Source: a virus. Taken from it: a stretch of DNA of 34,093 bases. Each line of letters starts with the position of its first letter. The stretch's first letter is position 1. A model generated the notes under the pieces. The model had not been told where the DNA came from. It saw only the letters and a program-made list of their open reading frames with translations, and ran no database searches. The stretch lies in IMG/VR virus record IMGVR_UViG_3300047356_000483, positions 1 through 34,093 of that record; one strand, given 5' to 3'. Positions 6,819 through 32,078 of this stretch are shown here, in pieces. The position numbers and the translations under genes are program-made.

Positions 6819-7336
6819 AGACCTAACTCCTTGTATACCATTTGAACACCTTTGGCTTGGAAGTATGCGTCTGCTAGTGCATTGTGTAAATCGCTTTGCA
6901 TAGCTTTGCGTGGATCTACTTTTGCCATGCTAAACAATGTTCTACTGTCACGCACTTGCCAAAACTGCCACGGAATAGGTTTGCCCTGCTGCCGCAACAT
7001 ATCTTCAATAATAGTAATATCAAAACCATAGCCGTGTCCCCACAGCACATCGACACCTACCATCCATTTGGGCAAGCTATCAAGAAACACATCAACGTGT
7101 TCACGCCCGTCTGTTCCAAATGCTTCGTCTTGCACCTTTTGATCCTGACGGCTCCACCAAGCAATAGTATCGTCGTTTACACTACGGTCTTGACTATCCA
7201 AGTCTAGTTTGTAATAAAATTCGCTGTGAGGTTCCGAATTGTTATGAGGATCAAATTTTACCCCACCTACTGTGAGTACAGTTGCTTGCGGTGTAACGTC
7301 AAGCGTCTCGAGATCAATCATTGCGTGAGTTGCCAT
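6815..7336 (-). CDS. DEDDh 3'-5' exonuclease (DexA / Rv2179c-like)
   Basis: Predicted two-metal 3'-5' exonuclease on DNA or RNA. The DEDD motifs are in order: Asp8 and Glu10 in AMIDLETLD, Asp106 in LWGHGYGFDITII, and His151 with Asp156 in HNALADAYFQA. The TIAWWSRQD segment near residues 57-65 recalls the Rv2179c-type exoribonuclease family (DUF5051); T4 DexA is a more distant relative. I set the start at the ATG at 7336 (173 aa), not the upstream frame extension, because GAGGAAAAC precedes it and the ATG overlaps the SWIM gene stop as TAATG. Likely roles are mRNA turnover or trimming of host DNA; the choice between RNA and DNA is open. Confidence 0.85.
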   Translation of the reverse strand: MATHAMIDLETLDVTPQATVLTVGGVKFDPHNNSEPHSEFYYKLDLDSQDRSVNDDTIAWWSRQDQKVQDEAFGTDGREHVDVFLDSLPKWMVGVDVLWGHGYGFDITIIEDMLRQQGKPIPWQFWQVRDSRTLFSMAKVDPRKAMQSDLHNALADAYFQAKGVQMVYKELGL

Positions 7337-7530
7337 TAAAAGTTTTCCTCTACTGCCTTTATGTGTTTGCACTTTTTAAATGCAGGACAGTCGCAACTAA
7401 AGCCTTTGTCCAACATTTCTATATTATATATACCCTTACTACCCTCGGCTTGCCAAATTGTACCGATTGCCCAATGTTTTTTTGTGTTAATAATATCACT
7501 TGGATATACTTTAGGTCCGTATTTTGACAT
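7336..7530 (-). CDS. SWIM zinc-finger protein (64 aa)
   Basis: Small protein with a SWIM-type zinc motif CxCxnCxH near its C-terminus: SCDCPAFKKCKHI, using Cys46, Cys48, Cys54 and His56. SWIM domains bind DNA or protein partners in bacterial SNF2-type and other proteins; a stand-alone SWIM of this size is probably an adaptor. I prefer the ATG at 7530; a GTG nine bases upstream (7539) is the alternative and gives 67 aa. It is the first gene after the strong sigma70-type promoter at 7562-7590, so it should be among the earliest products of this operon. Confidence 0.7.
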   Translation of the reverse strand: MSKYGPKVYPSDIINTKKHWAIGTIWQAEGSKGIYNIEMLDKGFSCDCPAFKKCKHIKAVEENF

Positions 7531-7561
7531 TGCCGCCACTCTGCTTGGTTGTTATAAAATA

Positions 7562-7590
7562 GTTATAGCATATTACTTGACAGTTGTCAA
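7562..7590 (-). promoter_or_regulatory. Early sigma70-type promoter with overlapping 9-bp inverted repeat
   Basis: On the minus strand, -35 TTGACA (7585-7590), 17-bp spacer and -10 TATAAC (7562-7567), with a TG at the extended -10 position (TGCTATAAC). The -35 hexamer is one half of a perfect 9-bp inverted repeat, TACTTGACA / TGTCAAGTA (7574-7593, two-base centre), which could be an operator. The promoter overlaps the last codons of the radical SAM gene. Predicted transcription begins near 7555 and runs through the operon toward 3035. Confidence 0.8.
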
Positions 7591-8688
7591 GTACTTTGTC
7601 AACATTGGATGAGCAAATGCGAGACTTTTATCAGTTGTCTTATCAAATTCCTCTGTAAATTTGCAAAACTTATCAAATAAATCTTTATCAAACTGATAAT
7701 TAGAAAAATATTTTTTTATCATATTATTTTTACAAAGTTTTTTTACATAGGCTGGAGGCAACGCATTTAAAGATAAATGGCGTGGACTTGTGCAAATAGT
7801 AAAATGTGGAGGAAATCCACCTTCTAAATACATGCGCCCAAAATTGTGTAATAAAGGTATTTGGTCAACATTTAAAGCATTTATTACAGAATGTCCTGAT
7901 ACATTAAACCCATGCGATTTCCATAGTTCAACATTTTTTATTTTTTCTTTCCATATTGTACCTTCACGTATATATTCATCTCTATGCAATATACCATCTA
8001 CACTTATACATACATTTACATTTGCAAATTTTTTAAGATAAGAAAGATATTTGTGTGGAAAGAATGTTGCGTTTGTATTAGTAAAAAGAGTAGTTTTTGT
8101 TAAGTCTACTCTTGCATCTAAATATTTAAATAGCTTACCTATCTGCGGTGTAATAAATGGTTCGCCGCCTATGTATTTTATTATTTTTACATTACTTAAA
8201 TCTACAGGATCAAACATTTCCTCTACGCTATTACTTATTCTAGCGCAATCTGTACTACCAAAATCTACAAAGTCCAACAAACGAGGATTTGTTTCTATAC
8301 GTTTAATATAGTCTGTACTAAAGTTTGGCGCACACATTCTACAAGTTACATTGCAATCATTACCTAAACTTATTTCTATAAATTCAATTTCATCGTTTTC
8401 AGTTTTTTTATGCTTGATACTTCGATTGTTGCCAGTTCGTAGACTGTTGTTGTTGACTTGTTCACTTTCTTTACAGGCTTTACAACCTTCGTGCCAGTCA
8501 CCAGATTCCATTGTATTTTTTAAGTCTTGATATTCTGGTAAGTTTCTGTAATCATCAAACGTTATGCTTGTCCAATGATTGGATATTAATGGATCTTTAT
8601 TACTGTTTGATCTATACATACAGCAAGGAATTCTATATCCATTAATATCTAAAGCTAAATGACTCTTATAGGCAAAACATTCAGGCAT
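7573..8688 (-). CDS. Radical SAM protein, twitch/SPASM-like type
   Basis: Predicted radical SAM enzyme that reductively cleaves SAM to a 5'-deoxyadenosyl radical; the substrate is unknown. The [4Fe-4S] motif CNVTCRMC uses Cys112, Cys116 and Cys119, and GGEPF at 174-178 is the SAM-binding GGE motif. Further Cys at 4, 22, 23, 69 and 72 (CKACKES) could hold an auxiliary cluster. Proteins of this look, often called twitch-domain radical SAM, are frequent in marine phages. The start at ATG 8688 (371 aa) is preferred over a TTG 45 bases upstream; it overlaps the preceding gene's stop by eight bases. It is the last gene of its unit, and its 3' end carries the next operon's promoter. Peptide or cofactor modification is possible; no precursor peptide was recognised nearby. 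Confidence 0.88.
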   Translation of the reverse strand: MPECFAYKSHLALDINGYRIPCCMYRSNSNKDPLISNHWTSITFDDYRNLPEYQDLKNTMESGDWHEGCKACKESEQVNNNSLRTGNNRSIKHKKTENDEIEFIEISLGNDCNVTCRMCAPNFSTDYIKRIETNPRLLDFVDFGSTDCARISNSVEEMFDPVDLSNVKIIKYIGGEPFITPQIGKLFKYLDARVDLTKTTLFTNTNATFFPHKYLSYLKKFANVNVCISVDGILHRDEYIREGTIWKEKIKNVELWKSHGFNVSGHSVINALNVDQIPLLHNFGRMYLEGGFPPHFTICTSPRHLSLNALPPAYVKKLCKNNMIKKYFSNYQFDKDLFDKFCKFTEEFDKTTDKSLAFAHPMLTKYLTTVK

Positions 8689-8863
8689 TCTGGGCTCTGA
8701 ATTTTTCGTAAAGTTTCCAACCTTCCCAAGCAAACACTAGCATCACACCTGTTATAAAGCCGCCGCCAAATAATGTTGCTAAGGCTAGTGTGCTTAGTAG
8801 ATTAGCAAAGAACAGTATGACCGGAATGTCATACCATTCAAAGTTTTCAAATAAATTGGGCAA
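8681..8863 (-). CDS. Small membrane protein (60 aa)
   Basis: Unrecognised. A hydrophobic stretch from about residue 13 to 46 (IPVILFFANLLSTLALATLF, Gly-rich turn, ITGVMLVFAW) predicts two membrane helices with a basic C-terminal tail (KLYEKFRAQ). The start is TTG at 8863 inside the end of the MazG-like gene (17-base overlap); no better ATG exists upstream. A holin or holin-like role is conceivable from size and topology, but it is not near the endolysin and has no family signature I know. Confidence 0.55.
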   Translation of the reverse strand: MPNLFENFEWYDIPVILFFANLLSTLALATLFGGGFITGVMLVFAWEGWKLYEKFRAQNA

Positions 8864-9200
8864 GCTCTGGAGCCTTCCATCCTTCTGGCTTTAGTACCTT
8901 GCCATCTTCACGCTTGCGAACTTTACCAGTGTCTGAATCGATTTTAGCAAAGTTAGTATCCATGACTTCTTTCCAAGCACCTTCACCATTCCAGCCTGCT
9001 GCACGAATAGCACCCATAGTAACAACTAATATGTCGATGAGTGCGTCAAGTTGTTCGACTTTATCATCTGCTGCTACTGCTTCTACAAGTTCACCTACTT
9101 CTTCATCAATAAGACTTAGATACATTTTGTAGTTTGATTCGCTTGGCGGTTGGTCACACGCTGTTGCAAATGTGTCAATATCTTTAAATACGTCTGTCAA
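8847..9200 (-). CDS. mazG: MazG-like nucleotide pyrophosphohydrolase, phage C-terminal extended type (117 aa)
   Basis: Predicted all-alpha NTP pyrophosphatase. Metal-binding motifs are EEVGEL at 33-38 and EQLDALIDILVV at 49-60 (Glu49, Asp52/Asp56). The C-terminal block TGKVRKREDGKVLKPEGW is typical, from memory, of the MazG-like proteins of T4-like cyanophages and other marine phages. The start is TTG at 9200, with GGAGC eight bases upstream and the preceding TAA just before it. It differs from the 94-aa MazG-like protein at 6314-6598 in motif spacing and tail, so the two are unlikely to be a recent duplication. Both may sanitise or rebalance nucleotides during genome synthesis. Confidence 0.88.
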   Translation of the reverse strand: MTDVFKDIDTFATACDQPPSESNYKMYLSLIDEEVGELVEAVAADDKVEQLDALIDILVVTMGAIRAAGWNGEGAWKEVMDTNFAKIDSDTGKVRKREDGKVLKPEGWKAPELAQFI

Positions 9201-9623
9201 TTATCTTGCTCCAAATGATTCTGGGCTTATTTCTGCCGGGCCATCGTCATACTCTGCTCCAAGTTGAACGTCATCTGGTTTTTTATCTGAAACCATTAAT
9301 ACACTTTCGGCTTCTACCATACGTAGTTGTATTTCTCCGTTGCCTTCGTCCATATCGATACCACGAGTCCAACGTCCGTGTTCGATTAAAATCCAGTCAC
9401 CTATATCATAATCTTCTTTGTTTTCTGGACCTTTTGCATGTACTTGCGCCCAACGTGGATAGATACCTCTAGTTTCGCCATCGTCACTACGTATGATAAG
9501 TCCGCCTTTTGTCTTTTGTTCGCCAAAATGCATATTGCTTACTATTACTCTATTTCCAATAGGAGTTAGTTTACCTTTAACTTTTGGGGTTATTTTATAA
9601 CCGCCGGCCGAAAATTCTGTCAT
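9201..9623 (-). CDS. GroES-like co-chaperonin (functional analogue of T4 gp31)
   Basis: Predicted co-chaperonin lid for host GroEL, needed for folding large phage proteins. The chain has the GroES core: LTPIGNRVIVSN at 19-30, a mobile loop ending in GGLIIRS (hydrophobic Leu42-Ile43-Ile44, the GroEL-binding tripeptide), VHAKGPENKEDYDIGDWILI at 61-80 and a closing strand VEAESVLMV. Length 140 aa exceeds host GroES (about 97), with an extended acidic C-terminus. The start ATG follows AGAGG. The gene lies among late-expressed genes behind the motif at 10047-10056, consistent with capsid or tail-fibre folding. No gp31 sequence identity is claimed. Confidence 0.88.
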   Translation of the reverse strand: MTEFSAGGYKITPKVKGKLTPIGNRVIVSNMHFGEQKTKGGLIIRSDDGETRGIYPRWAQVHAKGPENKEDYDIGDWILIEHGRWTRGIDMDEGNGEIQLRMVEAESVLMVSDKKPDDVQLGAEYDDGPAEISPESFGAR

Positions 9624-9632
9624 ATGTTCCTC

Positions 9633-10031
9633 TTATGTTTTCTTTATAAAGTTACCATCAGCGTCTTCAATCCATTCTTCTTTTGGTGCAGGGGTAGTTT
9701 TTGAACGTGTTGTTGTCTTCTTAACCGGTGCTGGTTCGTCGTCAAATTCTGCAAGTTCTTTTTCCTCTGCTTTACTAAGAGCGGTAGCTGGCGGCATTAC
9801 TGCTTTACGTGTAGGTTCATCGACCACTGTTCCTGAATTGTAAAAGTCTTGAATTACTTCTTCTCGCTTTTTAACAATTTTACCACCAGGGCCAAGTTCG
9901 TCTCCACGTGCATTTACTTTAGCATTACCTACCGCAGGTGTCAACTCATTTCTTTTGATTAACATATCTAAATCAATTTGTTTGCCTTGCATTGTGCGAT
10001 AGACTTTAGCTTGTTTGTTTTTCATTGCCAT
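9633..10031 (-). CDS. Conserved T4-like marine phage protein, Lys/Pro-rich tail (132 aa)
   Basis: Predicted late protein, unknown function. The N-terminal part (KVYRTMQGKQIDLDMLIKRN, then LTPAVGNAKVNARGDELGPGG) resembles, from memory, a family found in most T4-like cyanophages. The C-terminal half is disordered and rich in Lys, Pro, Thr and Glu (VKKTTTRSKTTPAPKEEW). I place the start at the ATG at 10031, seven bases after AAGGAGA; another ATG two codons in is possible. A CTAAATATT late-type motif lies 16-25 bases upstream. A virion-internal or core protein is possible but unproven. Confidence 0.65.
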   Translation of the reverse strand: MAMKNKQAKVYRTMQGKQIDLDMLIKRNELTPAVGNAKVNARGDELGPGGKIVKKREEVIQDFYNSGTVVDEPTRKAVMPPATALSKAEEKELAEFDDEPAPVKKTTTRSKTTPAPKEEWIEDADGNFIKKT

Positions 10032-10046
10032 TATATGTCTCCTTAG

Positions 10047-10056
10047 CAATATTTAG
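10047..10056 (-). promoter_or_regulatory. Late promoter-like motif CTAAATATTG
   Basis: Minus-strand CTAAATATT keeps the TAAATA core of the T4 late promoter and sits 16-25 bases upstream of the 132-aa late-type gene, over the stop codon of the gene before it. It differs from the best copies in the first two positions (CT for GA), as does the copy at 12065. Confidence 0.45.
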
Positions 10057-10697
10057 TTTTTAAAAATGTCAACTAATGACTTATTATGTTTATATAAAAG
10101 TGTTTTGGCTTCTAAACTGTAACCTGGAATAGGATCTGGATTGCCAGGATATTTAGGTGTTTCTTCACAAATTATAAATTCTTTAATTTTCTTTCTTTTT
10201 CTGACAATTTTATTCCATTTTGGTTTATTAGATTTTACTATATATCTAAATCCGGCAAATTGTTGCCCTGTCCATGTTTTATTACTTAGTTCTACATATA
10301 AGTTATCAACCCTATCGTGAAACCAATCGATAATTGGTACTACACTTTCACAACGTAAAACCGGATGGTATTTTCTAAAATCGCTGGTATTTGATATATG
10401 TAAGTAAACATGAGTTTGATTTAAATTCAACTTATTAAACAATTCATAATACGATTCTGCATCGTTTCTATCTACTTTTATATCAAGATGATATATTTTT
10501 TTAGTTAAACACGCATCGTATTCTTTTTTGTTGTCTTCCATCGGCGGCGGAAAGTCACACGTAGGTGCTATATACAAATCTTTATAACCATCCATTCTTA
10601 TTGCAATACTGTGTTCGTATAAAGGAAGATTGCTAAGAACTGATGCAAAAGCAAGTTCTTTTCTATTTTGCTCTTGTCCTTCGATTATCTCTATCAT
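10053..10697 (-). CDS. Hypothetical protein (214 aa)
   Basis: Not recognised. A soluble, Lys/Tyr-rich protein with no membrane segment, P-loop or metal motif I can support; it holds a few scattered Cys (APTCDFPPP, ILRCESVV in similar contexts). Predicted mixed alpha/beta. Its ATG overlaps the stop of the upstream Pol III-alpha-like gene as ATGA, so the two are co-translated. I checked whether it could be a frameshifted continuation of that gene; it has none of the polymerase motifs. Composition (more Lys, Asn) is a little unlike its neighbours, compatible with accessory DNA. Confidence 0.6.
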   Translation of the reverse strand: MIEIIEGQEQNRKELAFASVLSNLPLYEHSIAIRMDGYKDLYIAPTCDFPPPMEDNKKEYDACLTKKIYHLDIKVDRNDAESYYELFNKLNLNQTHVYLHISNTSDFRKYHPVLRCESVVPIIDWFHDRVDNLYVELSNKTWTGQQFAGFRYIVKSNKPKWNKIVRKRKKIKEFIICEETPKYPGNPDPIPGYSLEAKTLLYKHNKSLVDIFKN

Positions 10698-11224
10698 CGT
10701 AAAAATTCATGCCAGTCTAAATCATATTTAATACTATTGATCTTATGTACACCTATTAAGTATAACACATAACTCGCTACAGAGCTACCTCTGCCAACGC
10801 CCCATACGATATTGTTTTCACGCATAAAGTCTACAAGATAAATCATATAGCGTAGTAAGTCAAGCATGTCACGTGCTTCGTACTCACATAGCTCATTCCA
10901 TATGCGTTCTTGTACATGTTGTGGACAGGGTGTTTCTGCTTTGCCTAGTACATATTCATATACATTGATGTCTTTGTATTCATCAGGCATAAACCATTCA
11001 CTTTGACATACACCGTCAAAAGTCTTTTGATCTACGTCTAGTGGAATATACTTTTGTAGTTTGTCAAAGCCTTGCTCTTCCATAGCAGTATTGAACTTGT
11101 CTACATCGTCTGATTCTTCGCATAATACCACATGGCACTTGTCAACATGACCCGAATAGATCATGTCAACTAAGTCTTTGTTAGAAAATCGTGGGATACC
11201 GAGAGAGTCTGTTTTCATTAGCAT
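10694..11224 (-). CDS. DNA polymerase III alpha (DnaE)-like fragment lacking the catalytic aspartates (176 aa)
   Basis: The C-terminal third (about residues 100-176) aligns by eye with the start of the DnaE palm: a helical segment RYMIYLVDFMRENNIVWGVG, then GRGSSVASYVLYLIGVHKIN and KYDLDWHEFLR, corresponding to the bacterial GRGSGAGSLVAYAL...FERFL. The protein ends just where DnaE would continue with the PDFDxDF catalytic aspartates, so it cannot be a polymerase by itself. The N-terminal part (GIPRFSNKDLVDMIYSGHVD) is not recognised. ATG 11224 or the second ATG at 11218 may be used. A near-consensus promoter (11231-11259) would start the mRNA almost at the start codon. It may be a decoy or adaptor derived from host polymerase, or a conserved phage domain of unknown role. 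Confidence 0.65.
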   Translation of the reverse strand: MLMKTDSLGIPRFSNKDLVDMIYSGHVDKCHVVLCEESDDVDKFNTAMEEQGFDKLQKYIPLDVDQKTFDGVCQSEWFMPDEYKDINVYEYVLGKAETPCPQHVQERIWNELCEYEARDMLDLLRYMIYLVDFMRENNIVWGVGRGSSVASYVLYLIGVHKINSIKYDLDWHEFLR

Positions 11225-11230
11225 ACATAT

Positions 11231-11259
11231 ATTTTAGCTTACTTTTATTAGGTTGTCAA
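11231..11259 (-). promoter_or_regulatory. Sigma70-type promoter before the DnaE-like gene
   Basis: Minus-strand -35 TTGACA (11254-11259), 17-bp spacer, -10 TAAAAT (11231-11236). The spacing is identical to the promoters at 7562 and 33308. It lies in the last codons of the 77-aa gene. Predicted +1 falls near 11224, so the transcript would have almost no leader. Confidence 0.6.
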
Positions 11260-11467
11260 GATCATTATCATCATTTTGTTGAGATAATTTTGCTTTGTTA
11301 CGTTGACGTTCTTCTAATTCTAATTTATATGAATCCATTAAAAGCTGCATTTGATGACGCACCGATTCGTCATGTGTCATAAAATACATTCCGTTGAGTT
11401 TGTATAATTTTTGCTCAATTTGATGATCTGTATATTCATCTAACTTTTCAGCGTGAGGATGTATCAA
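11234..11467 (-). CDS. Conserved phage hypothetical protein (77 aa)
   Basis: Function unknown. A helical, Gln/Glu/Lys-rich protein (DEYTDHQIEQKLYKLNGMYF, then SVRHQMQLLMDSYKLELEER) ending in DLDNLIKVS. The overall plan and the DNDLDNLI-like end resemble, from memory, a small protein found in T4-like cyanophages. It is the last gene of the tail-fibre block, its start overlaps the 194-aa gene stop by four bases, and its final codons hold the promoter of the next unit. Possibly a small virion or assembly factor. Confidence 0.6.
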   Translation of the reverse strand: MIHPHAEKLDEYTDHQIEQKLYKLNGMYFMTHDESVRHQMQLLMDSYKLELEERQRNKAKLSQQNDDNDLDNLIKVS

Positions 11468-12048
11468 CTAAAAGATGCCTCATACGATAAGAATACATTA
11501 GCGCCACCATCATAAGAAAATGCTTTAATTAATTTACTATCGGTTGCTGTTGTTCCTGTTTGTACAATATTACCAGTAAATGCTGCATTACCATCAGTTT
11601 TTATACTACCGGCGTTTTCTGTTAAGAATGTTACTGCACGATCACTTATACCGTCACCATAAACTTGTACACGCATTTCACAATAGCGTCCGCTGTTTGG
11701 CCAATCAGTAAATGTTAGAGTAATATCGCCTTCAGCTTTAATTACATGATGATGTCCTGCTGTCAAACTTATGTTTGCTGCTGACAAAATACCATTTGTA
11801 AAAGCACTTGTGTCTGATTTTTCAACTGATTGAGCAAGATTTACGTTTTTCTGTTCAAAATTATTGTCAAACTCGTTTGTCACATCTAATCTTGCACGAT
11901 TTCCCTGTAATGATTCGATCTCTAAAATAGCATTTCTAAAGTTTTCTTTAATAATGTTAAAATTGTCACGAAATCCTTGACTATCATTATCCTGACCTGC
12001 TACTGGATATTCTTCGTCAATTGTTGTATACGTAATGTTACTTGCCAT
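11464..12048 (-). CDS. Tail/baseplate-associated structural protein (194 aa)
   Basis: Predicted virion protein. The N-terminal 40 residues (QDNDSQGFRDNFNIIKENF) are a divergent form of the NDGTGDxxRxxFxKxNxNF module found on three other proteins of this block, suggesting attachment at a related virion site. The remainder is beta-rich with alternating Thr/Gly (TLTFTDWPNSGRYCEM, later VQTGTTATDSKLIKAFSYDG), typical of fibre or baseplate decorations. The ATG at 12048 follows GAGAGG, and a CTAAATACA motif is 17-25 bases upstream, giving this gene its own late promoter. No enzymatic motif is visible. Confidence 0.7.
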   Translation of the reverse strand: MASNITYTTIDEEYPVAGQDNDSQGFRDNFNIIKENFRNAILEIESLQGNRARLDVTNEFDNNFEQKNVNLAQSVEKSDTSAFTNGILSAANISLTAGHHHVIKAEGDITLTFTDWPNSGRYCEMRVQVYGDGISDRAVTFLTENAGSIKTDGNAAFTGNIVQTGTTATDSKLIKAFSYDGGANVFLSYEASFS

Positions 12049-12064
12049 ATTTTTTTCCTCTCAA

Positions 12065-12073
12065 TGTATTTAG
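12065..12073 (-). promoter_or_regulatory. Late promoter-like motif CTAAATACA
   Basis: Minus-strand CTAAATACA, 17 bases upstream of the 194-aa structural gene and just after the 1643-aa gene's stop. The motif lies inside an 8-bp inverted repeat (CAATGTAT 12062-12069 / ATACATTG 12082-12089), which may separate the transcripts. Confidence 0.5.
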
Positions 12074-12079
12074 TTTAGA

Positions 12080-15000
12080 TTATACATTGTATTTGTAATT
12101 ACTGAACAGAATATACTGTTCATTGCTGTTATTTAATGTACTATCAATAATATATCTATCAATTTCGTAATCTATTTGATTAAAATTAAAATTGGTGCTA
12201 TTAATATAATTATCAATATTGTCTTTTACAAAGTTACCAGTACCTGGCTTGCAATATGCTAATGGTAATGCAAAAACATATTCTTCGCTTGGTGCTCCTA
12301 CTTCTTGTTGAGTTCTCATCCATAAAGGTAAGAAACTGTTATCTGTGACAATTTGATCAAATTGCTCACTGTCGTTTGGTAACGATGTTTGAATAGTTTT
12401 AAGTCTTTCTCTCATGTTACTAATGTTGCATATATATCTTAAAATATCTTTGTTTTGTCCGGCAAGTATACCTGTATTATCAGTAGTGATTGTATTTCCG
12501 TCTGGTCTATGTCTATAGCTACTGCTAGTTGTAACAATACTACTACTGTTTTCAGTTATAGTCACATCTAAGCCTGAGCGTAGAGTTATCGTAAAACTAA
12601 TACCCAATGATGGAACATTTAAAATATCATTAACTCCGCTGCTGTCTTCTGATCTTAAAACAATATCTACACTTGACGCACTACCTACAAATTTTATAGG
12701 ATTGCCATCATTGCCTACCAAAGAGTATGACGCTGCACTGGTTATAATGTCTGCACTATTATCATCTAAAATTTCTAGGTTTACACTATCAATTGTAATC
12801 GGACTACCGTATTTTGTTTTAAAGTTTTGTTTAGTTTTACCTTTTTTACTATCGCCTTTATCTATTAACTCTACATAGACTACTTCATAAACAACATTAT
12901 TTTGTCCTCGCTCTTTTGCAATAGCAGTCTTAACATTTCCAAAATAAAAGTTTTTCTTTTTATGATTTAATGCCGTAGCACCAACGTATTCATTTATATT
13001 TGTAGTTTGTATGCCTGCATATACTAAACTTTTAAGATTTTTTTGCACACCAAAATTTCCATCTGCCGGGCGATATATGTATTGAGGTGTAAAGATATCA
13101 ACATTATTGATAAATTCGTTGAAGTAATTTCTTTGTTGCTTTGGTAAAAACGGTTTCATTGAAATATTTGAATATAGATTATTATCAGGATCTAGAATAT
13201 TAAGTTCAAATGTTTTTACTGCAATCTTATCAGCAAATTTATCTTTTACCAATACAACAAATTCGTATTTACTGTCAAATCGTGTTGTTCCGTTATCTAT
13301 TGTTGTTTGGTTTGTGTCGTACAAAGTTAGACCTGGAATACCTGCTACACCAAACTGTTGTATGGCACCTGTAATTTCGCCAGATTTTTGTAGAGTTATT
13401 CCTGTAGGTAGTTTTCCTTTTACAATTATATATTCTAGTCTACCTAATCCTGTAGTAGTTTCCGCTTCAACTCTTAGGGTACTAATTCTGTTGGCTTGTA
13501 AACTTGGTAACAGTCTATCTGTTTTCCATACTAATTGCGAGTCAATTTCGCCTTGTAAATCTAATGTAAAGGTTTTACGTACACTTACAACTTCTTGATC
13601 AATTGTTCTAATACGTTCTACAATATTTGATCCGTTTGGTGCACCGATAGCAATTGTAGAGTCGTTCTCTAATGTTCTAATTAAATTTGAATCTAATGTA
13701 ACCTTATTAAAATTATAAGTTTTGCTTATATCTAAGTCACTACTATCTTCTTTGTAAAATAATCTTTTTATGTCAAGTCTGCGATTGGTTGCGGCAGTTT
13801 CTGGCAATCTAAGAATAATTCTAGTTTGGGATTCAACTGTAATGTATGCATCGCCCGAGATACTATTATCTGATAAGAATCCTTCAACTGCTCTTGTAAT
13901 TGATTCGGCTAACGTTTCTCCTTGTGCAGCACCTTCTACTTCTAGTGCAGCACCGTCACCTGACTCTACAGTATATTCTATGTAAGTATCGATGCTAGTA
14001 ATCTGATATTCTTCATTTGCATTATAATTAATGTATCTGTTTGTATAAAACAATTTACTTTTTTCGTCTATAGGATCAACAAAGAAGTAGTTGTTTCCGT
14101 TTACACCTTGGGTATATAATTTTAAATTTTGTGCTTGAAATGTTGGAAATAATGGTTCTGTTAGAGAAATAACATCATATTCTGCATTACTATTGTTTAC
14201 ATTTTTTACCACATACGATCTGTTTTCAATTGTAATATTTCTAGCTCTCAGTAATTCTAAATCTCCTTCGGGTAATTTTGCTACCCTAATTGAACTAATG
14301 CCTGCTCTAATATCGTAATTTATAAGAGCATTTACTTCTACTATTTCATCATCGCTTTCGCTGCGTTCTGCTCTAATAGTAAATTTAAATTCTTTTTCTG
14401 ATACTGGCTGATAACCAACTCTTCCTGCAATCTCTCCATTACTTCCATCTAACTCTAGTCCTGGTGGCAAAATACTTTCGCTTCCATCATTGTTAATTGG
14501 TTCTAAAATATAACTTACTGTACCTAATAAAATATTTGGGTCATATACTTCCATCGGAAGTGTTATGTAATTGTTTGCACGTTTCTTTCCTAAATAACTA
14601 TTTGTTAACCATATTGGAGATCTCAAATATGTTGCATCGGCATTAAACACACCACTAGCAGATTTCATAATGGTATTATCGGCACGTACAAAATCGTCAC
14701 CTACTACAAATATATTAAATTTTCTTTTTGTTGTATTAACACCGTCATTTACACTTACAAAGAATTGATAATTTCTATTTAATTTTTTTGGTTGTTTTGT
14801 AGCTACACCAAATTCATAATTTTGAGCATCAAACAAATAACTATCAAACCCATCGCCGTCAGGTATGCCCCAGTCAATTGGATAAGCATCAAATACATTT
14901 GTGTCATATCCAGCTTCTGCATCTGCATCTAAAGCAAGTAATGGATCTACAAAGCCAGTGATTTTACCACTTTTGCTTAAAGTTAATCCTCCGGGTAATT

Positions 15001-17011
15001 CTCCGTCACCGTCTGCAATAAAAAATTCCAATTCTTGTCCTGCACGAGTATCGTTGTCTTTGGCTTCTATTTGAAAGTCAATATATGCATTATCTAATAT
15101 ATATGTTGTAGGCTCGTTAGAAGTAGGAGCAGATAGACCTGCTTCGTAATCTAACATTACAAAAGCGCCCTCGTTTCTATCAAAACGTTTTATATTGAAA
15201 CGAGTTGTATTAGCAAAAGTTTCTATCCATAATTCGTCATCGGCAGGATTAAGAGGTTCGTTAAAACTTACAGTAAAATCTTGTGTTAAAAATAAACCAA
15301 ATTTAGAATCATATTTTCTGATTACAGGAAAGAACCCATTATCCGAATTGCCTAGCTTCCACCAATAATCCACTGTTGCATTAGGTGGTTGTGCAAATTG
15401 AGCTGTAACTCTATTTCCATTGTTAAAGTCTACACTAAGAACTTTTGTATCTAATTCATACCATTTATCTTTTAATATATAAAATTTACTTACGCCTTTA
15501 TCAAACGATACTACTATGTTACCCGCTGGTATTCCTGGTATTCCTGGTATTGCTGGCGATCCTTCACTTAATTCATCAACAACATAACCTGACGCACCTG
15601 CCAAACTAGGATCATCTTGCGCTGGTGTATTGCCGTCTTGGAATATATTTCTAATAGTAGCAAGTGACGGTTTACTAATAACTGTAGAAATGTATGTGTT
15701 GTGGAACGCATAACCTAATGGGTTATTTGCTAATATGCCTGCTTGAGTACGCATGTCGTCTGTCCACTCCGGAGCAAGACTTCCGCCATCCCATAAATCT
15801 GTGTATTCAAACATACAAAAGTTTAGTAGATACAAGTATTCTTTTGCGGCTACTTCAAACGCATCTGCGATTGTTTTCCAATCAGCTGGATTTTCTAGGT
15901 AACCTGATGGATCCCACTTGCCTGCGTCAAATGCTTCTTCCATTGCTGCATATAACTCACCTGACTGCCAATCAGCTGCTAAGAACTGATATAATTTTAT
16001 GTCATCTGCAGGTAAACCGTGCATGTGTAATGTATGGAATACGTGTTCAATAACTTCTTGTGCATCTATATCGCCATCGCCATAACCATCACCAGTTGAG
16101 TTTAAGTACCACACCATGTCATTTTGTACGTGAGTATCAAACAGGTTAGTTAGGTTCCAACTAATAACACCTGCATCAGTTAGGAAGTTTGGAGTATAAT
16201 CTGCTCCAGCACCTCTAGCCACTCTTTGTATAGTTGGCAGTCCTGCGTGATAAGTTCCTGCGTCACCACTTAGTGTTTTGATCATTGCTCTTTGGAATGA
16301 TTCGTTAATACCTGCGCCATTTGGATCTAAGAATAGTTCATACATACGTGCTACTTTTTCTAGCCACGCATCTGGAACTGCTGTTTGTCCACCTACTGTG
16401 CCAGCACCCATAATTCTTACACCGTTGGTTGTAACTTCACGCTTGAAGAAATCGCTGCCATCGCCTGTAACATTGCTAATTGCACCATTGTTGTATTCTG
16501 GGTCTGCTTCTTCTGCTGGTACTGCTGGTACTGCTGGTACTGCTGGTACTGCTGCACCATAGCTTTCTAATGTAGTAGGTTTACCATTTACAACAGCTAC
16601 CTCTTGATCTACATATGTAAGTCCGTTCCAATATTTTATGCCCCACACTGTATTTGCAGCATCTAACCAATAACGCCCGCTTGGTTCAGGTCCTACTTTA
16701 AGATCGCCTTCTGGTGTTATAAATTCAACATCGTCTGGTCCGTTGATAAAAATCTTAAATGTTCTATCAGCAATACCTTCGTTTGATGTAGCTCTTATAC
16801 AAAATTCAAAAGAGCTGTAAACACTTACTTCAAACGGATTACCTGTTAAATTATTTTCTATTAATGATATTCCAGGCGGCAATGCTCCTGAAATTACCTT
16901 TGTTGTTACATCGTCTGGATTATCTAAAGGCAACGGAATGTCTAGTGATATTCTCTCTTGAAATTCTCCAAAGCTATGTCCAGATCCAACTGTCCATTCT
17001 GGTAATGCCAT
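12080..17011 (-). CDS. Giant tail/baseplate structural protein with Ig-like (He_PIG) repeats and an inserted domain (1643 aa)
   Basis: Predicted virion protein, probably baseplate or fibre. Putative Ig (He_PIG-like) modules, recognised by LPPGIxL-type turns followed by a YxFxVxxxD strand, occur at about residues 36-92, 655-772, 836-900 and 1190-1275. Residues 153-166 are an (AVP)n linker and 486-497 an IPG-rich linker (AIPGIPGIPAG), both encoded by 9-bp tandem repeats. They bracket a helical domain (170-485) with an EF-hand-like loop (Asp308-Glu319) followed at once by EHVFHTLHMHG (322-332) and a later conserved-looking EYLYLLNF (391-398). The C-terminal part is Asn/Ser-rich. The ATG follows the preceding stop by one base (TAATATG). 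A metal-binding or peptidase-like function for the insert is inference; no He_PIG count is certain without a profile search. Confidence 0.8.
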   Translation of the reverse strand: MALPEWTVGSGHSFGEFQERISLDIPLPLDNPDDVTTKVISGALPPGISLIENNLTGNPFEVSVYSSFEFCIRATSNEGIADRTFKIFINGPDDVEFITPEGDLKVGPEPSGRYWLDAANTVWGIKYWNGLTYVDQEVAVVNGKPTTLESYGAAVPAVPAVPAVPAEEADPEYNNGAISNVTGDGSDFFKREVTTNGVRIMGAGTVGGQTAVPDAWLEKVARMYELFLDPNGAGINESFQRAMIKTLSGDAGTYHAGLPTIQRVARGAGADYTPNFLTDAGVISWNLTNLFDTHVQNDMVWYLNSTGDGYGDGDIDAQEVIEHVFHTLHMHGLPADDIKLYQFLAADWQSGELYAAMEEAFDAGKWDPSGYLENPADWKTIADAFEVAAKEYLYLLNFCMFEYTDLWDGGSLAPEWTDDMRTQAGILANNPLGYAFHNTYISTVISKPSLATIRNIFQDGNTPAQDDPSLAGASGYVVDELSEGSPAIPGIPGIPAGNIVVSFDKGVSKFYILKDKWYELDTKVLSVDFNNGNRVTAQFAQPPNATVDYWWKLGNSDNGFFPVIRKYDSKFGLFLTQDFTVSFNEPLNPADDELWIETFANTTRFNIKRFDRNEGAFVMLDYEAGLSAPTSNEPTTYILDNAYIDFQIEAKDNDTRAGQELEFFIADGDGELPGGLTLSKSGKITGFVDPLLALDADAEAGYDTNVFDAYPIDWGIPDGDGFDSYLFDAQNYEFGVATKQPKKLNRNYQFFVSVNDGVNTTKRKFNIFVVGDDFVRADNTIMKSASGVFNADATYLRSPIWLTNSYLGKKRANNYITLPMEVYDPNILLGTVSYILEPINNDGSESILPPGLELDGSNGEIAGRVGYQPVSEKEFKFTIRAERSESDDEIVEVNALINYDIRAGISSIRVAKLPEGDLELLRARNITIENRSYVVKNVNNSNAEYDVISLTEPLFPTFQAQNLKLYTQGVNGNNYFFVDPIDEKSKLFYTNRYINYNANEEYQITSIDTYIEYTVESGDGAALEVEGAAQGETLAESITRAVEGFLSDNSISGDAYITVESQTRIILRLPETAATNRRLDIKRLFYKEDSSDLDISKTYNFNKVTLDSNLIRTLENDSTIAIGAPNGSNIVERIRTIDQEVVSVRKTFTLDLQGEIDSQLVWKTDRLLPSLQANRISTLRVEAETTTGLGRLEYIIVKGKLPTGITLQKSGEITGAIQQFGVAGIPGLTLYDTNQTTIDNGTTRFDSKYEFVVLVKDKFADKIAVKTFELNILDPDNNLYSNISMKPFLPKQQRNYFNEFINNVDIFTPQYIYRPADGNFGVQKNLKSLVYAGIQTTNINEYVGATALNHKKKNFYFGNVKTAIAKERGQNNVVYEVVYVELIDKGDSKKGKTKQNFKTKYGSPITIDSVNLEILDDNSADIITSAASYSLVGNDGNPIKFVGSASSVDIVLRSEDSSGVNDILNVPSLGISFTITLRSGLDVTITENSSSIVTTSSSYRHRPDGNTITTDNTGILAGQNKDILRYICNISNMRERLKTIQTSLPNDSEQFDQIVTDNSFLPLWMRTQQEVGAPSEEYVFALPLAYCKPGTGNFVKDNIDNYINSTNFNFNQIDYEIDRYIIDSTLNNSNEQYILFSNYKYNV
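15527..15553 (-). repeat. 9-bp tandem repeat encoding Ile-Pro-Gly linker
   Basis: Three 9-bp units on the plus strand (TGGTATTCC twice, then TGGTATTGC) encode AIPGIPGIPAG on the minus strand, residues 487-497 of the 1643-aa protein. It marks the C-terminal border of the inserted domain. The unit length keeps the reading frame, so copy number can change without frameshift. Confidence 0.8.
16513..16552 (-). repeat. 9-bp tandem repeat (four perfect copies) encoding Ala-Val-Pro linker
   Basis: TGCTGGTAC occurs four times without change (16513-16548), with a partial fifth, and encodes AVPAVPAVPAVPA at residues 154-166 of the 1643-aa protein. It marks the N-terminal border of the inserted domain and should be prone to copy-number slippage in frame. 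Confidence 0.9.
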
Positions 17012-17012
17012 A

Positions 17013-17666
17013 TTAGCTCCCTACTGCACCAAAGTCAACTACACTCCTTGAGGGTTCGGTAATACTTCCTAAATCAACATCTGTATCATTTAAAATGAAA
17101 TCAAATATGCTTGTTCTAACATCACTAAATGCTCCAAAGTCCCACCCAAATGCCTTTTCAAGTTCTACAACAGGAATGTTTAAATTTATTGTAGATAAAT
17201 TAAAGATACCGTTATTATTAGCATTTAGTTGTCCTGCTAATTGAGGCTGTGTTTCGTGCTGTAGTTTACTATCTATTATTATTTTGTTAGGTGTTGTATT
17301 TCCATCAACACTAACTCTTGCAGCGTTTCTGCCATCTACATTTATAATAGAACCTGCACCACTAATTATACTAGTGTCAGCATTGTCTCTAAAAATAAAT
17401 TGTCCTGCAAGACTGCTTATTTCTACTTCGTTTTCGTTTTCGGTTAATGTAATGGCATTACCCGCTGTTAATGTTTTAAATGCTAATTCTTGTCCTGTTT
17501 GGACTTTAAAAATTTCAGCACCTACGCCTGTATTAATTGCGGTAGTGGATTCTGTACGTAAATCTAAATCATCAAAGTTTTCGTTTACTTTGATAAATGC
17601 TTCTCTTAAATCATCCCCTGTACCGTCATTAGCTACTAAGCCCACGTTTATAGTTTGTAATGGCAT
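17013..17666 (-). CDS. Tail-fibre/baseplate protein with NDGTGD N-terminal module (217 aa)
   Basis: Predicted virion protein. Residues 1-35 carry the module INVGLVANDGTGDDLREAF and KVNENFDDL, nearly the same as the N-termini of the 2395-aa and 99-aa proteins. The middle is beta-rich (AITLTENENEVEISSLAGQF), with a Gly/Asn-rich segment resembling fibre shaft repeats, and the C-terminus is distinct (DFGAFSDVRTSIFDFILNDT). A strong GGAG and a GATAAATAC late promoter precede it. It lies between the subtilase and the 1643-aa protein, so all three are probably made together late. Confidence 0.75.
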   Translation of the reverse strand: MPLQTINVGLVANDGTGDDLREAFIKVNENFDDLDLRTESTTAINTGVGAEIFKVQTGQELAFKTLTAGNAITLTENENEVEISSLAGQFIFRDNADTSIISGAGSIINVDGRNAARVSVDGNTTPNKIIIDSKLQHETQPQLAGQLNANNNGIFNLSTINLNIPVVELEKAFGWDFGAFSDVRTSIFDFILNDTDVDLGSITEPSRSVVDFGAVGS

Positions 17667-17684
17667 CTTTCTACTCCGTTTTTA

Positions 17685-17693
17685 GTATTTATC
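17685..17693 (-). promoter_or_regulatory. T4-like late promoter motif GATAAATAC
   Basis: The same 9-mer as at 2189 and 28737, 19-27 bases upstream of the 217-aa gene. It overlaps the TGA stop of the subtilase gene, so it can restart late transcription inside the fibre block. Confidence 0.65.
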
Positions 17694-19287
17694 AAGTTCT
17701 AAGTGTAAGTCCATTCCGAGGCCTGAGTAAATTTGACATTGCAAAAGGAACTTTGTTATATCTGTTAAACATAATTCTATTTGGTGATCCGTGTAAACTA
17801 CGGGGTTCTCCGTAATCAACTATACTTGCTGTATCGTATATAATTCCAGTTACAGCATCATCTTCTATTATTTGTTTAGTTTGTGCAGGAGTAAGCGTAG
17901 GATCTTTTTGTAATAAACATGCTATAACACCTGCAACTTGCGGTGACGCCATACTTGTACCACTTATATTACATTGTCTAAAACTGCTATTTTTTGAATA
18001 TGCTGCATCTGTAAATTTATTAGTATTACTTGTGCAACTCATAATATTACTACCACCTGCCCATATATTACAACCAGGTCCAGTGCAACTAGATGTAGAA
18101 CGTGTATCTAAATTACCAAATGTAGAATCTAAAATATTTCCTACTATCATTGCATCGTTACTAAACGGGCTGCTACCTCTATGATAGAACTCAGACGATC
18201 CACTTCTCAGTATAGTGTTATTATAATCAGGTCCACCAGGTACATCAATTTTAAATCTACTATTTCCAGCAGCGATACAAACATGTATTCCATCGTCTAT
18301 CATATCTTGAACATCAGCATCAACACTAGCAATACGAACAGGCATTCTTGTTGTATTATTTTGTCCAAATATTGGAATAATTACTCCTACAGCATTTTGC
18401 AGTGTTTGACTTGTACTACTATAATCAGTAGCAAAGTCCCATGCAGTGCCTCTATAATTTCCTGTTGTGATATCGTCGGGGTCTAAGTTGTATCCATACC
18501 CCCAACTCATATTTACTACAGTTGGTCTTCCAGCATCGGCACCACTTTTTGAGTTATGCCACAATCTAATAGTATCAAAGATATCGCTTACACTAATACC
18601 GTTGCCACTATCACCTGTGCCTTCTAATCCTGCAACTTTTTGTCCGTACACTCTTGCATTTTTAGCCCAGCCAAATGTCAACCCTGCTGCTATACCTCCA
18701 CAATGTGTTCCATGCCCATCTGTATCTCTGTCATGATTAGCACTTTGAGTACCGCTTACGCCACTTGCTGTATACCAATCTATAGATCTATATCGTGTGT
18801 TACCAGCAGCATCATTCCATTCAGGATGGTCAATCTGCAATCCGCTATCTTGTATTACAACATCCACACCTTCTCCGTCGAAACTATAATTGATAGTATC
18901 ACCATTTGCGTTGTTAGTGCCTCCGACATTAGTAAAATTGTATGTTTCACTCATATGTCGAAACAAGCCCCAGTTTTGAAAATCGCCACTAGCCACACTA
19001 GTTTTTCTAAAATTTCCTACTTGTTTTGCATTAAGTTCGATAGTAATGTCAGTACGATATTCTGCAGGAATTTCTACTGCTTCGACTCTAGAATCTCTAC
19101 GGATCATTGCAGCTTCTTCGTCGGTTAATGAAAAATAAGTTTGACGTCTACTTCCTGCTCTAGGATGTGCTATATCTACTTTCCTGTTAGGAATATTATC
19201 TAGCAACGTATATCTAGTAAGATCATCTTGTATTTGATCTATAGTTGTTCCTCTGTTGGCTATAACTGTATAGACCTTTTCAGTCAT
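17692..19287 (-). CDS. Subtilisin-like serine protease (peptidase S8) in the tail-fibre operon (531 aa)
   Basis: Predicted active serine protease. The catalytic residues are all visible: Asp147 in VDVVIQDSGLQIDHPEW, His192 in DTDGHGTHCGGIAAG, oxyanion Asn342 in CIAAGNSR and Ser445 in ISGTSMASPQVAG. Residues 1-80 (ending SRVEAVEIPAEYR) look like an I9-type propeptide/inhibitor fold, but there is no signal peptide, so it acts in the infected cell or as part of the virion. The region 400-440 holds several Cys (CTGPGCNIW, SCTSN). Its ATG overlaps the fibre stop as TAATG, and its stop overlaps the next late promoter. Likely roles are maturation of the neighbouring fibre proteins or degradation of a host surface layer; neither is shown by the sequence. 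Confidence 0.93.
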   Translation of the reverse strand: MTEKVYTVIANRGTTIDQIQDDLTRYTLLDNIPNRKVDIAHPRAGSRRQTYFSLTDEEAAMIRRDSRVEAVEIPAEYRTDITIELNAKQVGNFRKTSVASGDFQNWGLFRHMSETYNFTNVGGTNNANGDTINYSFDGEGVDVVIQDSGLQIDHPEWNDAAGNTRYRSIDWYTASGVSGTQSANHDRDTDGHGTHCGGIAAGLTFGWAKNARVYGQKVAGLEGTGDSGNGISVSDIFDTIRLWHNSKSGADAGRPTVVNMSWGYGYNLDPDDITTGNYRGTAWDFATDYSSTSQTLQNAVGVIIPIFGQNNTTRMPVRIASVDADVQDMIDDGIHVCIAAGNSRFKIDVPGGPDYNNTILRSGSSEFYHRGSSPFSNDAMIVGNILDSTFGNLDTRSTSSCTGPGCNIWAGGSNIMSCTSNTNKFTDAAYSKNSSFRQCNISGTSMASPQVAGVIACLLQKDPTLTPAQTKQIIEDDAVTGIIYDTASIVDYGEPRSLHGSPNRIMFNRYNKVPFAMSNLLRPRNGLTLRT

Positions 19288-20816
19288 TATAAATTGCTCC
19301 AGTTACTTCCATCGTAGAATTGACAACGACCAGCATCGCTGTTTGCTATTAACATACCAAATACTGCCGAGATACCATTCCTTGTACTATTATCCATAAC
19401 TGGTAATTGCAAAGGTCTAGGTGAGTTTATATTAGGTACATACATAAATCCGCCATTACCGGCGCCGTCTGCATTACTACTATAAAATGCTAATGTTTCT
19501 GCGTTGTCGTCATAGTACATATCACCTGTTGCACCAGAGATACCGCTTGGTGCGCCAGAGCTTGCAGGTACTTGGAATAATCCTGCAATTACATCTACTC
19601 TTCCTGTAAGTGATGCATTTAAAACAATATCGCTACTACTTTCTAGTGTTGGTGTTCCTGTACTACCGCTATCAACTCTATCAGCTGTTATAGTACCTGT
19701 TACATCTAAGTCACCTGTGATATTAGCACCACTTGGTATATTCATAACATTGCCATCTGAAGTGTCAATGTTGAAACCGGCAAGTGCTATTAGTCCACCA
19801 CTCGGTGATACAGTAACAATAGTACCGCCTGCTAAATTTGTAAACAAATTTCCACTTACTGTTAAACTACCAGCAATTGCACTAGCACCCGATCCTGTAA
19901 TATCTATATCAGTTGCTTCAAGTGATCCTATTGTTGTTAAACCACCATTACTAACAGTAAGGTTATTTTGAAAATCTACTGCTACGTTGGTTGTTGCGCC
20001 TCTAGCAGTAACACTTTGTAAGTCATCTTCTTCTTCAGTTATGCCGCCACCGCCGCTGCCTTGTTCATCGGCTGCTGATGTCCAGTTAGCACCATTCCAT
20101 TTTAAAACATCGCCAGTATTAGGTGTACCTGTATTTACATCTCCTAAGTTACCTAATGAAAAAGTGCTTAAATCTACTGATGGTGCTTCTCCGTCAAAAT
20201 CAATTTGTATTTTGCCTAGCCCGTTAATAGAGACACTAATATCATCACCAGCGACAATTTCTGGAAACGCAATTTGGAATTCACCAGTGTTGTTATCATA
20301 GGTAAATGCACCAGTTCCACTGTCGGCTATTTTTGAAGCACTAAGATCTGTTAAAAAACTGCCGCCGCCACCTCCGGTTATAGTTTCAAATTGAAACTTT
20401 ATATCTTCTCCGACTAATTTTCTAACAATTAAAGTATCGCCGTCTGATGCTCCATCTAGTCCTTCTAAGTCTGTTTGGTCTTGAATTCTGCTTACACCAA
20501 ACTCTGTTGGTTTATTTTGAATAAAAGCCGGACTATTTTCGTTTTCTTCTGTCCAATCTGATTTCGTCTGAGAAGTTAACGGCACAATTCCGTTTATTGT
20601 TAAACTTGTAGTATTAACTTCACTTAATGATGTTACACCTGTTACACTAAGACCGCCTGTGATTGTAGTGTCTGCACCAACTACTAACGAATTTGACAAC
20701 GATAAGTCACTTAGATTAACAATACCTGATCCTTCTAAGTCAATACTGTCGCCTGTTGGTATTTCTTTTATTTTACTATCAGTTGTATCTACTACTAGTG
20801 GAAATCTATTTGCCAT
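19287..20816 (-). CDS. Tail-fibre protein (509 aa)
   Basis: Predicted fibre. The opening MANRFPLVVDTTDSKIKEIP is typical of marine T4-like fibre-related proteins. Residues 85-105 carry the fibre motif DWTEENENSPAFIQNKP (general form DWxxxxxxSPAFIxNKP). Then come repeating Ser/Thr/Gly strands (TTITGGLSVTGVTSL, and similar later), a GGGGG hinge near residue 147, and a C-terminus with MYYDDNAETLAFYSS and QFYDGSNWSNL that resembles the end of phage fibre shafts displaying receptor-facing loops. AAGGA and a GATAAATAT motif stand before the ATG. The downstream subtilase starts inside its stop codon. Confidence 0.82.
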   Translation of the reverse strand: MANRFPLVVDTTDSKIKEIPTGDSIDLEGSGIVNLSDLSLSNSLVVGADTTITGGLSVTGVTSLSEVNTTSLTINGIVPLTSQTKSDWTEENENSPAFIQNKPTEFGVSRIQDQTDLEGLDGASDGDTLIVRKLVGEDIKFQFETITGGGGGSFLTDLSASKIADSGTGAFTYDNNTGEFQIAFPEIVAGDDISVSINGLGKIQIDFDGEAPSVDLSTFSLGNLGDVNTGTPNTGDVLKWNGANWTSAADEQGSGGGGITEEEDDLQSVTARGATTNVAVDFQNNLTVSNGGLTTIGSLEATDIDITGSGASAIAGSLTVSGNLFTNLAGGTIVTVSPSGGLIALAGFNIDTSDGNVMNIPSGANITGDLDVTGTITADRVDSGSTGTPTLESSSDIVLNASLTGRVDVIAGLFQVPASSGAPSGISGATGDMYYDDNAETLAFYSSNADGAGNGGFMYVPNINSPRPLQLPVMDNSTRNGISAVFGMLIANSDAGRCQFYDGSNWSNL

Positions 20817-20839
20817 TCTCGTGTCCTTGTATTGTTATA

Positions 20840-20849
20840 CATATTTATC
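20840..20849 (-). promoter_or_regulatory. Late promoter motif GATAAATATG
   Basis: Minus-strand GATAAATAT, 24-33 bases upstream of the 509-aa fibre gene, in the short gap after the 99-aa gene. It differs from the best copies only in the final base. Confidence 0.6.
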
Positions 20850-28354: not shown

Positions 28355-28720
28355 TTATATAGCCGGTATGGCCAATTTATCCATATCGAAATTTACACTC
28401 ACACCACAACCACATGCTGACTGAGCGTTAGGATTTTTAATCTCAAAGTTAGAACCAACTAGACTCTTTACATAGTCAACTTCAGTTCCTATTAAAAACA
28501 TTAAACTATGTGCGCCAACTACAAAAGCCGAACCGTTCGCAGTTTTAACTACTTCGTCATCGTCTTGTAAATCTGTTGGACTTGTAATTGTACCCCATTC
28601 GTATTCAAAGCCAGCACATCCTCCGCCTTTTATGTTAAGAGTAATGCCGTAGCACTCGTTTTCTTTACTTAAAAGGTCAATTTGTTTCTCTGCTGCTTGG
28701 GTTAGTGTACACATTGCCAT
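28355..28720 (-). CDS. A-type iron-sulfur carrier protein (IscA/ErpA/HesB family)
   Basis: Predicted Fe-S cluster carrier that delivers [2Fe-2S] or [4Fe-4S] clusters to apo-enzymes. The three invariant cysteines are present: Cys35 in GGGCAGFEY and Cys103, Cys105 in SACGCGVSVNF. Length 121 aa is usual. The ATG at 28720 has AGGAGA about eight bases upstream and a GATAAATAC late promoter 17-26 bases upstream. It is the first gene of the fibre block, only 11 bases before the giant fibre gene, so it should be made late, together with virion proteins. Possible clients in this window are the ferredoxin and the radical SAM protein. Confidence 0.92.
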   Translation of the reverse strand: MAMCTLTQAAEKQIDLLSKENECYGITLNIKGGGCAGFEYEWGTITSPTDLQDDDEVVKTANGSAFVVGAHSLMFLIGTEVDYVKSLVGSNFEIKNPNAQSACGCGVSVNFDMDKLAIPAI

Positions 28721-28736
28721 TATTTGTTCTCCTACT

Positions 28737-28746
28737 CGTATTTATC
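28737..28746 (-). promoter_or_regulatory. T4-like late promoter motif GATAAATACG
   Basis: Minus-strand GATAAATAC, 17-26 bases before the IscA-like start. It is the most upstream late motif of the fibre block and probably the main late start for IscA and the 2395-aa fibre. It lies in the 59-base divergent gap shared with the plus-strand sulfotransferase gene; that strand has TATAAT at 28756-28761 without a recognisable -35 box. Confidence 0.65.
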
Positions 28747-28779
28747 GTTGCTTTTTATAATCTTAATGTAAATATAGTT

Positions 28780-29562: not shown

Positions 29563-29849
29563 TGTTTATTAAAGAATACCTAATTGATACATGGCATATG
29601 CGCCGTAGCAAACTTGGAAAACAACATACATACAATCGTAAAAAAACAATGTGTTTATTTAGATGCGATAGTTGCGATGACGAATTTACAAGAGAACGAG
29701 GAAGTATGGATCCAAAAAGATTAAGTAATAATTACTTTCATGTTTGTGAGAACTGTGATGCAAAACGCTTTGCACAAAAGAAAGGCGTAGATAAAAAGAA
29801 AGTATGGAGTATGAGTGCTAGTAGTGGCATTTCAATAAGTAAAATTTAA
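29562..29849 (+). CDS. Zinc-ribbon protein (95 aa)
   Basis: Predicted zinc-binding protein: Cys35-x-x-Cys38 in RCDSCDDEF and Cys62-x-x-Cys65 in VCENCDAKRF form a four-Cys ribbon, with basic stretches on both sides. Similar small proteins in marine phages are sometimes called HNH-like or zinc-finger, but no HNH histidines are visible here. Its ATG overlaps the sulfotransferase A stop as TAATG, so the two are translated together. It ends four bases into the convergent sulfotransferase B gene. Probable DNA or RNA binding; function unknown. Confidence 0.7.
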   Translation: MFIKEYLIDTWHMRRSKLGKQHTYNRKKTMCLFRCDSCDDEFTRERGSMDPKRLSNNYFHVCENCDAKRFAQKKGVDKKKVWSMSASSGISISKI

Positions 29850-32077: not shown

Positions 32078-32078
32078 C

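Follow-up and report, generated by a model that had tools for sequence, protein, structure and literature searches.

Promiscuous virion domains, the Ig-like ones among them, are mostly seen as modules for binding. Ig-like domains are said to occur on many unrelated virion proteins of tailed phages, to be variably present and to have spread horizontally, as reportedly described by Fraser et al. in 2006. Otherwise unrelated phage proteins also share fragments, most strongly in receptor-binding and tail proteins, and this sharing has been described as ongoing and read as driven by interaction with the host (Smug et al. 2023, PMC10684548); that work describes domains already known from ECOD, and neither cyanophages nor marine phages are mentioned in its main text. 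The locus described here lies in the window, which is the whole stretch of 34,093 nucleotides analysed (positions 1 to 34,093 of virus record IMGVR_UViG_3300047356_000483). It encodes a domain of ~310 aa that is, with a probability of roughly 80%, a self-contained module passed among T4-like marine phages and grafted into tolerant virion proteins.

The domain is inserted in P0001 (Table 1), whose scaffold around the insert contains Ig-like domains with He_PIG matches, as had been predicted for the surroundings of the insert. P0001 had also been predicted to be a late-expressed tail protein; its neighbours are a protein with a gp9/gp10-like N-terminus, a subtilase and tail-fibre proteins. By its family match, the gp9/gp10-like neighbour places P0001 in what appears to be the tail/baseplate cluster of a T4-like virus, and a virus of this type is consistent with the genes for a clamp loader, thymidylate synthase and PhoH that the window has at other sites. 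Counterparts of the subtilase P0003 in other phages carry the same domain (L004, L020, L022, L030, L047, L067).

Table 1. Features of the inserted domain and its carrier gene in the window
Feature	Position	Strand	Evidence or remark
Inserted unit, ~1023 nt: N-terminal linker, domain and C-terminal linker	15518..16540	-	No counterpart in sister contig L153
Mobile domain, residues 170-481, DPEYNNG...SGYVVDEL	15569..16504	-	Borders common to copies in other proteins
N-terminal linker (AVP)n, 9-bp repeat x4.7	16513..16554	-	TRF score 84, 100% matches
C-terminal linker IPGIPGIP, 9-bp repeat x3.4	15526..15556	-	TRF score 55, 95% matches
Invariant motif EVIEHVFHTLH (E319, E322, H323, H326, T327), proposed metal site	16025..16057	-	Invariant in alignments A3 and A4
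Second conserved helix, which contains KEY; its E391 is a proposed additional metal ligand	15812..15868	-	E-Y conserved without exception in A3 and A4
P0001, Ig-repeat virion protein of 1643 aa with the insert	12080..17011	-	He_PIG, E 1.8e-13
Protein with gp9/gp10-like N-terminus, neighbour of P0001	17013..17666	-	PHROG 677, baseplate wedge tail fiber connector
Virion-type subtilase P0003, no domain in the window	17692..19287	-	Pfam Peptidase_S8, E 5e-29

Elsewhere in the window, a 176-aa protein at 10694-11224 (minus strand) matches a DNA polymerase PHROG and part of a DNA polymerase III alpha family, and may be a polymerase fragment or belong to a split polymerase. The ORF at 31757-32155 (minus strand) has a weak T5orf172 match slightly under the Pfam cut-off, and the overlapping gene at 32079-33245 has a weak match to DUF6551. 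Two ORFs on the opposite strand (28705-29849, plus) have no Pfam match and lie in the kilobase with the lowest GC content of the window (27%).

The insert differs in composition from the rest of P0001. Its GC content is 42.2%, against 33.3% in the remainder of the gene, and the encoded residues are enriched in A, G, H, M and W and depleted in I, K and N. Structure prediction, of modest confidence (pLDDT 65.7, pTM 0.69), yields twelve helices plus two short strands, and Pfam gives no Ig match within the insert. A helical insert unlike its surroundings, as originally predicted, is therefore present.

The predicted linkers encoded by 9-bp repeats are also found at both borders. The upstream repeat codes for AVPAVPAVPAVPA, residues 154-166. 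In 40 Markov-simulated windows the best TRF scores had a mean of 47 and a maximum of 66, so the upstream score of 84 is beyond chance. The downstream score of 55 is, taken alone, inside this chance range; that repeat draws its weight from its in-frame position at the opposite border of the same insert. Repetition leaves the edge of the insert ambiguous by some bases.

Pro-rich linkers accompany about 20 of the 134 copies of the domain, in four contexts, and the linker DNA is alike between contexts (the window, L014, L005 and L043). Because this similarity at the DNA level surrounds copies in unrelated proteins, the linkers tend to travel with the domain. The original prediction had taken the repeats to be the breakpoints of exchange. 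As a general rule this fails, since most copies lack such linkers and AVP-type repeats are common in phages without the domain: 119 viral stretches have AVP-type 9-bp repeats and none of them contains it. The AVP repeat was accordingly rejected as a marker of the element. Repeat slippage, also proposed originally, fits the linkers, whose length does change by repeat duplication – the linker of L287 has a perfect additional 18-bp unit relative to L299 and L302 – but leaves the movement of most copies unexplained.

A scan for the P0001 scaffold found five relatives (L152-L156), and all five lack the insert. The closest is L153, whose scaffold protein has 96-97% amino acid identity to P0001. By blastn, the window matches L153 at 97.5% over 7083-15517 and at 93.0% over 16541-20849; these two segments adjoin in L153, where a handful of bases stand in place of the window's 1023 and nothing matches between the flanks. 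Most 500-nt intervals on either side of the insert are 92-99% identical, and the DNA borders of the insert are abrupt. At the protein level, '...TTLESYSTS' of L153 runs straight into 'IVASF...': the L153 sequence is '...NGKPTTLESYSTSIVASFNNG...', against '...NGKPTTLESYGAAVPAVPAVPAVPAEEA[domain]...SPAIPGIPGIPAGNIVVSFDKG...' in the window. No second-site copy of the domain was found in the 31 kb of L153. The more distant scaffolds L152 (73%) and L154-L156 (~40-45%) are likewise empty.

With all five of the nearest scaffolds empty, gain in the lineage of the window is the simplest reading. Judged from these alignments, the acquisition by the window virus was probably recent, and its site is the linker region that follows the first Ig-like domain of P0001. 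In L017, which has an orthologous Ig protein, the domain occupies a site in the same inter-domain region, shifted by ~27 residues, and the differing insertion points indicate a separate insertion. A further pair with and without the domain is L151 and L216. The proposal of a mobile and exchangeable insert carried on linkers is thus borne out: the scaffold occurs in both states, and the linkers are part of the inserted unit.

Comparison with L153 also showed a difference elsewhere in this region. The middle of the subtilase gene (18041-19040) is just 83-86% identical between the two; the protease core may have been exchanged locally or may be evolving fast.

The P0001 scaffold was not found in cultured phages, while the domain alone was. 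It is present in 85 isolate records, all of Synechococcus or Prochlorococcus phages, at one place in each, and the carrier proteins are annotated as hypothetical or baseplate proteins. In Syn33, S-RIM12 and S-RIM2 the domain is in a large protein (~1710-1720 aa) between gp9 and gp8; in S-B43 it is in a 'baseplate wedge initiator'. S-RIM2 and S-BM1 form a filled and empty pair: the flanks are 84.5% and 84.9% identical, and S-BM1 has 1 nt between them where S-RIM2 carries an extra 958 nt. Both phages are assigned to Nerrivikvirus and both are linked to Synechococcus WH7803. As S-BM1 lacks the domain, growth on WH7803 does not require it, at least not in this phage. S-SSM5, S-RIM8, P-RSM1 and others have a contiguous match to the joined flanks, and so also have empty sites.

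Overlapping scans found the domain in 108 viral stretches (protein scan), 183 (alignment scan) and 352 (alignment including bacterial relatives). The 134 non-redundant copies occur in 37 flank contexts, which include tail-fibre, baseplate and other virion proteins, a subtilase, C-terminal fusions and a single free-standing gene; in PHROGs, the carriers match families of tail fibres, baseplate wedge, virion structural proteins and proteases. From these carrier proteins we infer that the domain is displayed on the virion. The ends of the domain are constant across carriers and coincide with the natural ends of the closer bacterial proteins. The phage subtilase alone has the domain in at least four positions, one of them inside the catalytic domain: between the regions of the catalytic Asp and the His (L020); ahead of the catalytic domain (L070); ahead of the region of the catalytic Ser (L035); and at the C-terminus (L013).

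Copies in different proteins can be nearly identical. The domain of the window and that of the L004 subtilase share 91.8% DNA identity over 927 nt, and those of L020 (inside the subtilase) and L013 (subtilase C-terminus) share 97.5% over 903 nt, against at most 83%, mostly 65-77%, in the other matches of these two; L139/L151 (96.5%) and L003/L006 (94.1%) are further cases. These transfers are recent, and near-identical copies within dozens of different proteins indicate that the domain moves between proteins as a module. Between contexts, dN/dS is 0.08-0.26; synonymous change is far above non-synonymous change, and the domain is under purifying selection. Across 131 copies, GC averaged 40.6% in the insert and 36.8% in the flanks, with a weak correlation (r=0.21). 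A quick tree of 118 clean copies, in which many branches are weak and the number of changes is approximate, requires at least 49 changes of context, compared with a minimum of 35 and a mean of 82 with shuffled labels. The copies are therefore mostly inherited in place but have often moved.

An ancestral domain that was part of these proteins and was lost many times, with no mobility, is very unlikely. Some slots (the subtilase, context 0) are filled in many lineages, as loss from an ancestral state would have it. Against this, the nearest scaffolds of P0001 are all empty, 76 of 80 subtilase relatives have no domain in the fetched stretch, and non-homologous proteins share the domain at up to 97% DNA identity, which already contradicts this reading.

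Chimeric assembly at a conserved domain could produce the same pattern, and one such case was identified. L008 is 99.8% identical to L011 exactly from the start of the domain, and its missing continuation is on L032, from the same sample; L008 was left out as a probable chimera. As an explanation for the data as a whole, assembly artefact is highly improbable: both flanks of the window continue a single gene that is intact in L153, complete cultured genomes show the same pattern, and copies lie deep within contigs of 85-268 kb.

In-frame insertion in many genes, even in the middle of a catalytic domain, could also be the work of a self-splicing intein, an intron or a translational-bypass element. 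This is hardly credible here. The insert has no stop codons; an Rfam scan of the whole window at gathering thresholds found no match, and thus no group I or II catalytic RNA; there is no match to an intein/Hint family; and the borders (D-x-E-Y...V-V-D) lack the Cys/Ser and His-Asn residues of splicing. Flanking linkers, C-terminal fusions and a free-standing gene argue against it as well.

Several copies depart from the common arrangement. The contig of L025 has two copies, one of each subfamily, so a rule of one copy per virion or genome is not strict; the second, divergent copy is in bases 3-314 of L459, in the same slot as in L293. L064 and L076 have the DPEYNNG motif after the domain instead of at its usual place before it, and the border seems to be permuted or duplicated. 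Divergent alleles appear to have been exchanged in the same slot between L066 and L293 and between L005 and L330. These exchanges look real, but are not relied on because in each pair at least one contig stops within the domain.

The domain has no significant match to a known family in Pfam, NCBIfam, PHROGs or PDB sequences, and searching the PDB with Foldseek produced no hit of E < 2. The best structural matches are weak – 4l7a with Z 5.6 over 198 aa and 3dl1 with Z 4.3, from a model with pLDDT 65.7 – and these are levels reachable by chance, as unrelated models score likewise. 4l7a is a putative zinc metallopeptidase from Bacteroides, and 3dl1 a metal-dependent hydrolase from Klebsiella. The pattern ExxEHxxHT and a later E-Y are invariant in A3, an alignment of phage and bacterial members, down to 25-45% identity; A4 comprises 53 members. 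HExxH is the canonical zincin motif. It is absent from the domain, which has the invariant EHxxHT instead and is for that reason not filed under the zincins.

Bacterial relatives of the domain are rare. A pattern scan of 84,980 species gave 3 matches, and the domain is present in 10 of 397 genomes of Flavobacteriaceae, 3 of 395 of the Planktomarina family, 3 of 385 of Alphaproteobacteria and 1 of 368 of the phylum of Opitutaceae. The relatives belong to Flavobacteriaceae, Rhodobacteraceae, other Alphaproteobacteria and Opitutaceae, with the domain 25-67% identical and its natural ends kept in the closer members. Usually it forms the C-terminal part of an apparent lipoprotein that also has InlB-type repeats; in two relatives, which are long proteins, it is combined with M10/serralysin-like peptidases. 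These bacterial proteins look like secreted types. One is L338, a protein of at least 1204 aa from a 1.4-Mb alphaproteobacterial genome, in which the domain occurs with an M10/serralysin peptidase and RTX repeats.

The conserved residues, together with the weak fold match, suggest that the domain may be a metal-dependent hydrolase on the particle, acting on the host surface or the surrounding matrix, at odds a little below even. More broadly, it is put forward tentatively that the domain represents an undescribed family of metal-dependent enzymes, derived from secreted bacterial proteins and used by marine phages as a plug-in for which any mounting point on the virion suffices. The same mobile module could instead be a binding domain for adhesion or receptor recognition, with the conserved His and Glu holding a structural metal, and this too is somewhat short of an even chance. 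The usual view of Ig-like virion domains as binding modules, the occurrence of the domain in tail fibres and baseplate proteins, and the fact that EHxxH is not a canonical catalytic motif favor binding. The strict invariance of the charged cluster among such divergent members and the co-occurrence with peptidases fit an enzyme better.

As a grafted module, the domain would originally have been taken from secreted bacterial proteins and transferred through illegitimate or short-homology recombination between co-infecting phages. It would be placed, with or without short Pro-rich linkers, at surface loops or ends of a tolerant virion protein. The presence of the domain on the virion would be the selected trait, and the mounting place would matter little.

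With 4l7a and 3dl1, the domain has in common a His/Glu-rich helix followed by a later Glu, and the fold match to them is weak, at Z levels that chance can reach; it has EHxxH rather than HExxH and no sequence similarity to either. The secreted-type bacterial proteins have the same domain as the phages, in a C-terminal position in lipoproteins or fused to M10 peptidases. In the literature searched, no description was found of the domain or of its internal plug-in use, even within a protease, and the searched libraries have no family model for it, although it is present in marine viral stretches by the hundred and in 85 records of isolates.

Shuffling of domains among phage tail proteins is already known, and the fragments common to otherwise unrelated phage proteins in the published domain mosaicism (PMC10684548) resemble the present case; here, relative to the known domains treated in that paper, a single undescribed domain can be traced across dozens of slots with exact empty sites. 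Exact empty and filled alleles are available, including a pair of cultured phages of one genus and one host strain. They allow the direct question of what benefit the module brings to the virion and whether its mounting position is relevant. A close likeness is to the promiscuous Ig-like domains of phages, which are also found on many unrelated virion proteins, vary in presence between relatives and spread horizontally. The present domain is larger, helical, unrelated in sequence and mostly an internal insertion, and its invariant charged residues hint at a metal site. With one domain in several non-homologous virion proteins (37 contexts), present in some and absent in others of close relatives (window/L153, S-RIM2/S-BM1, L151/L216), it belongs with the promiscuous virion domains, a class defined by function and not by homology.
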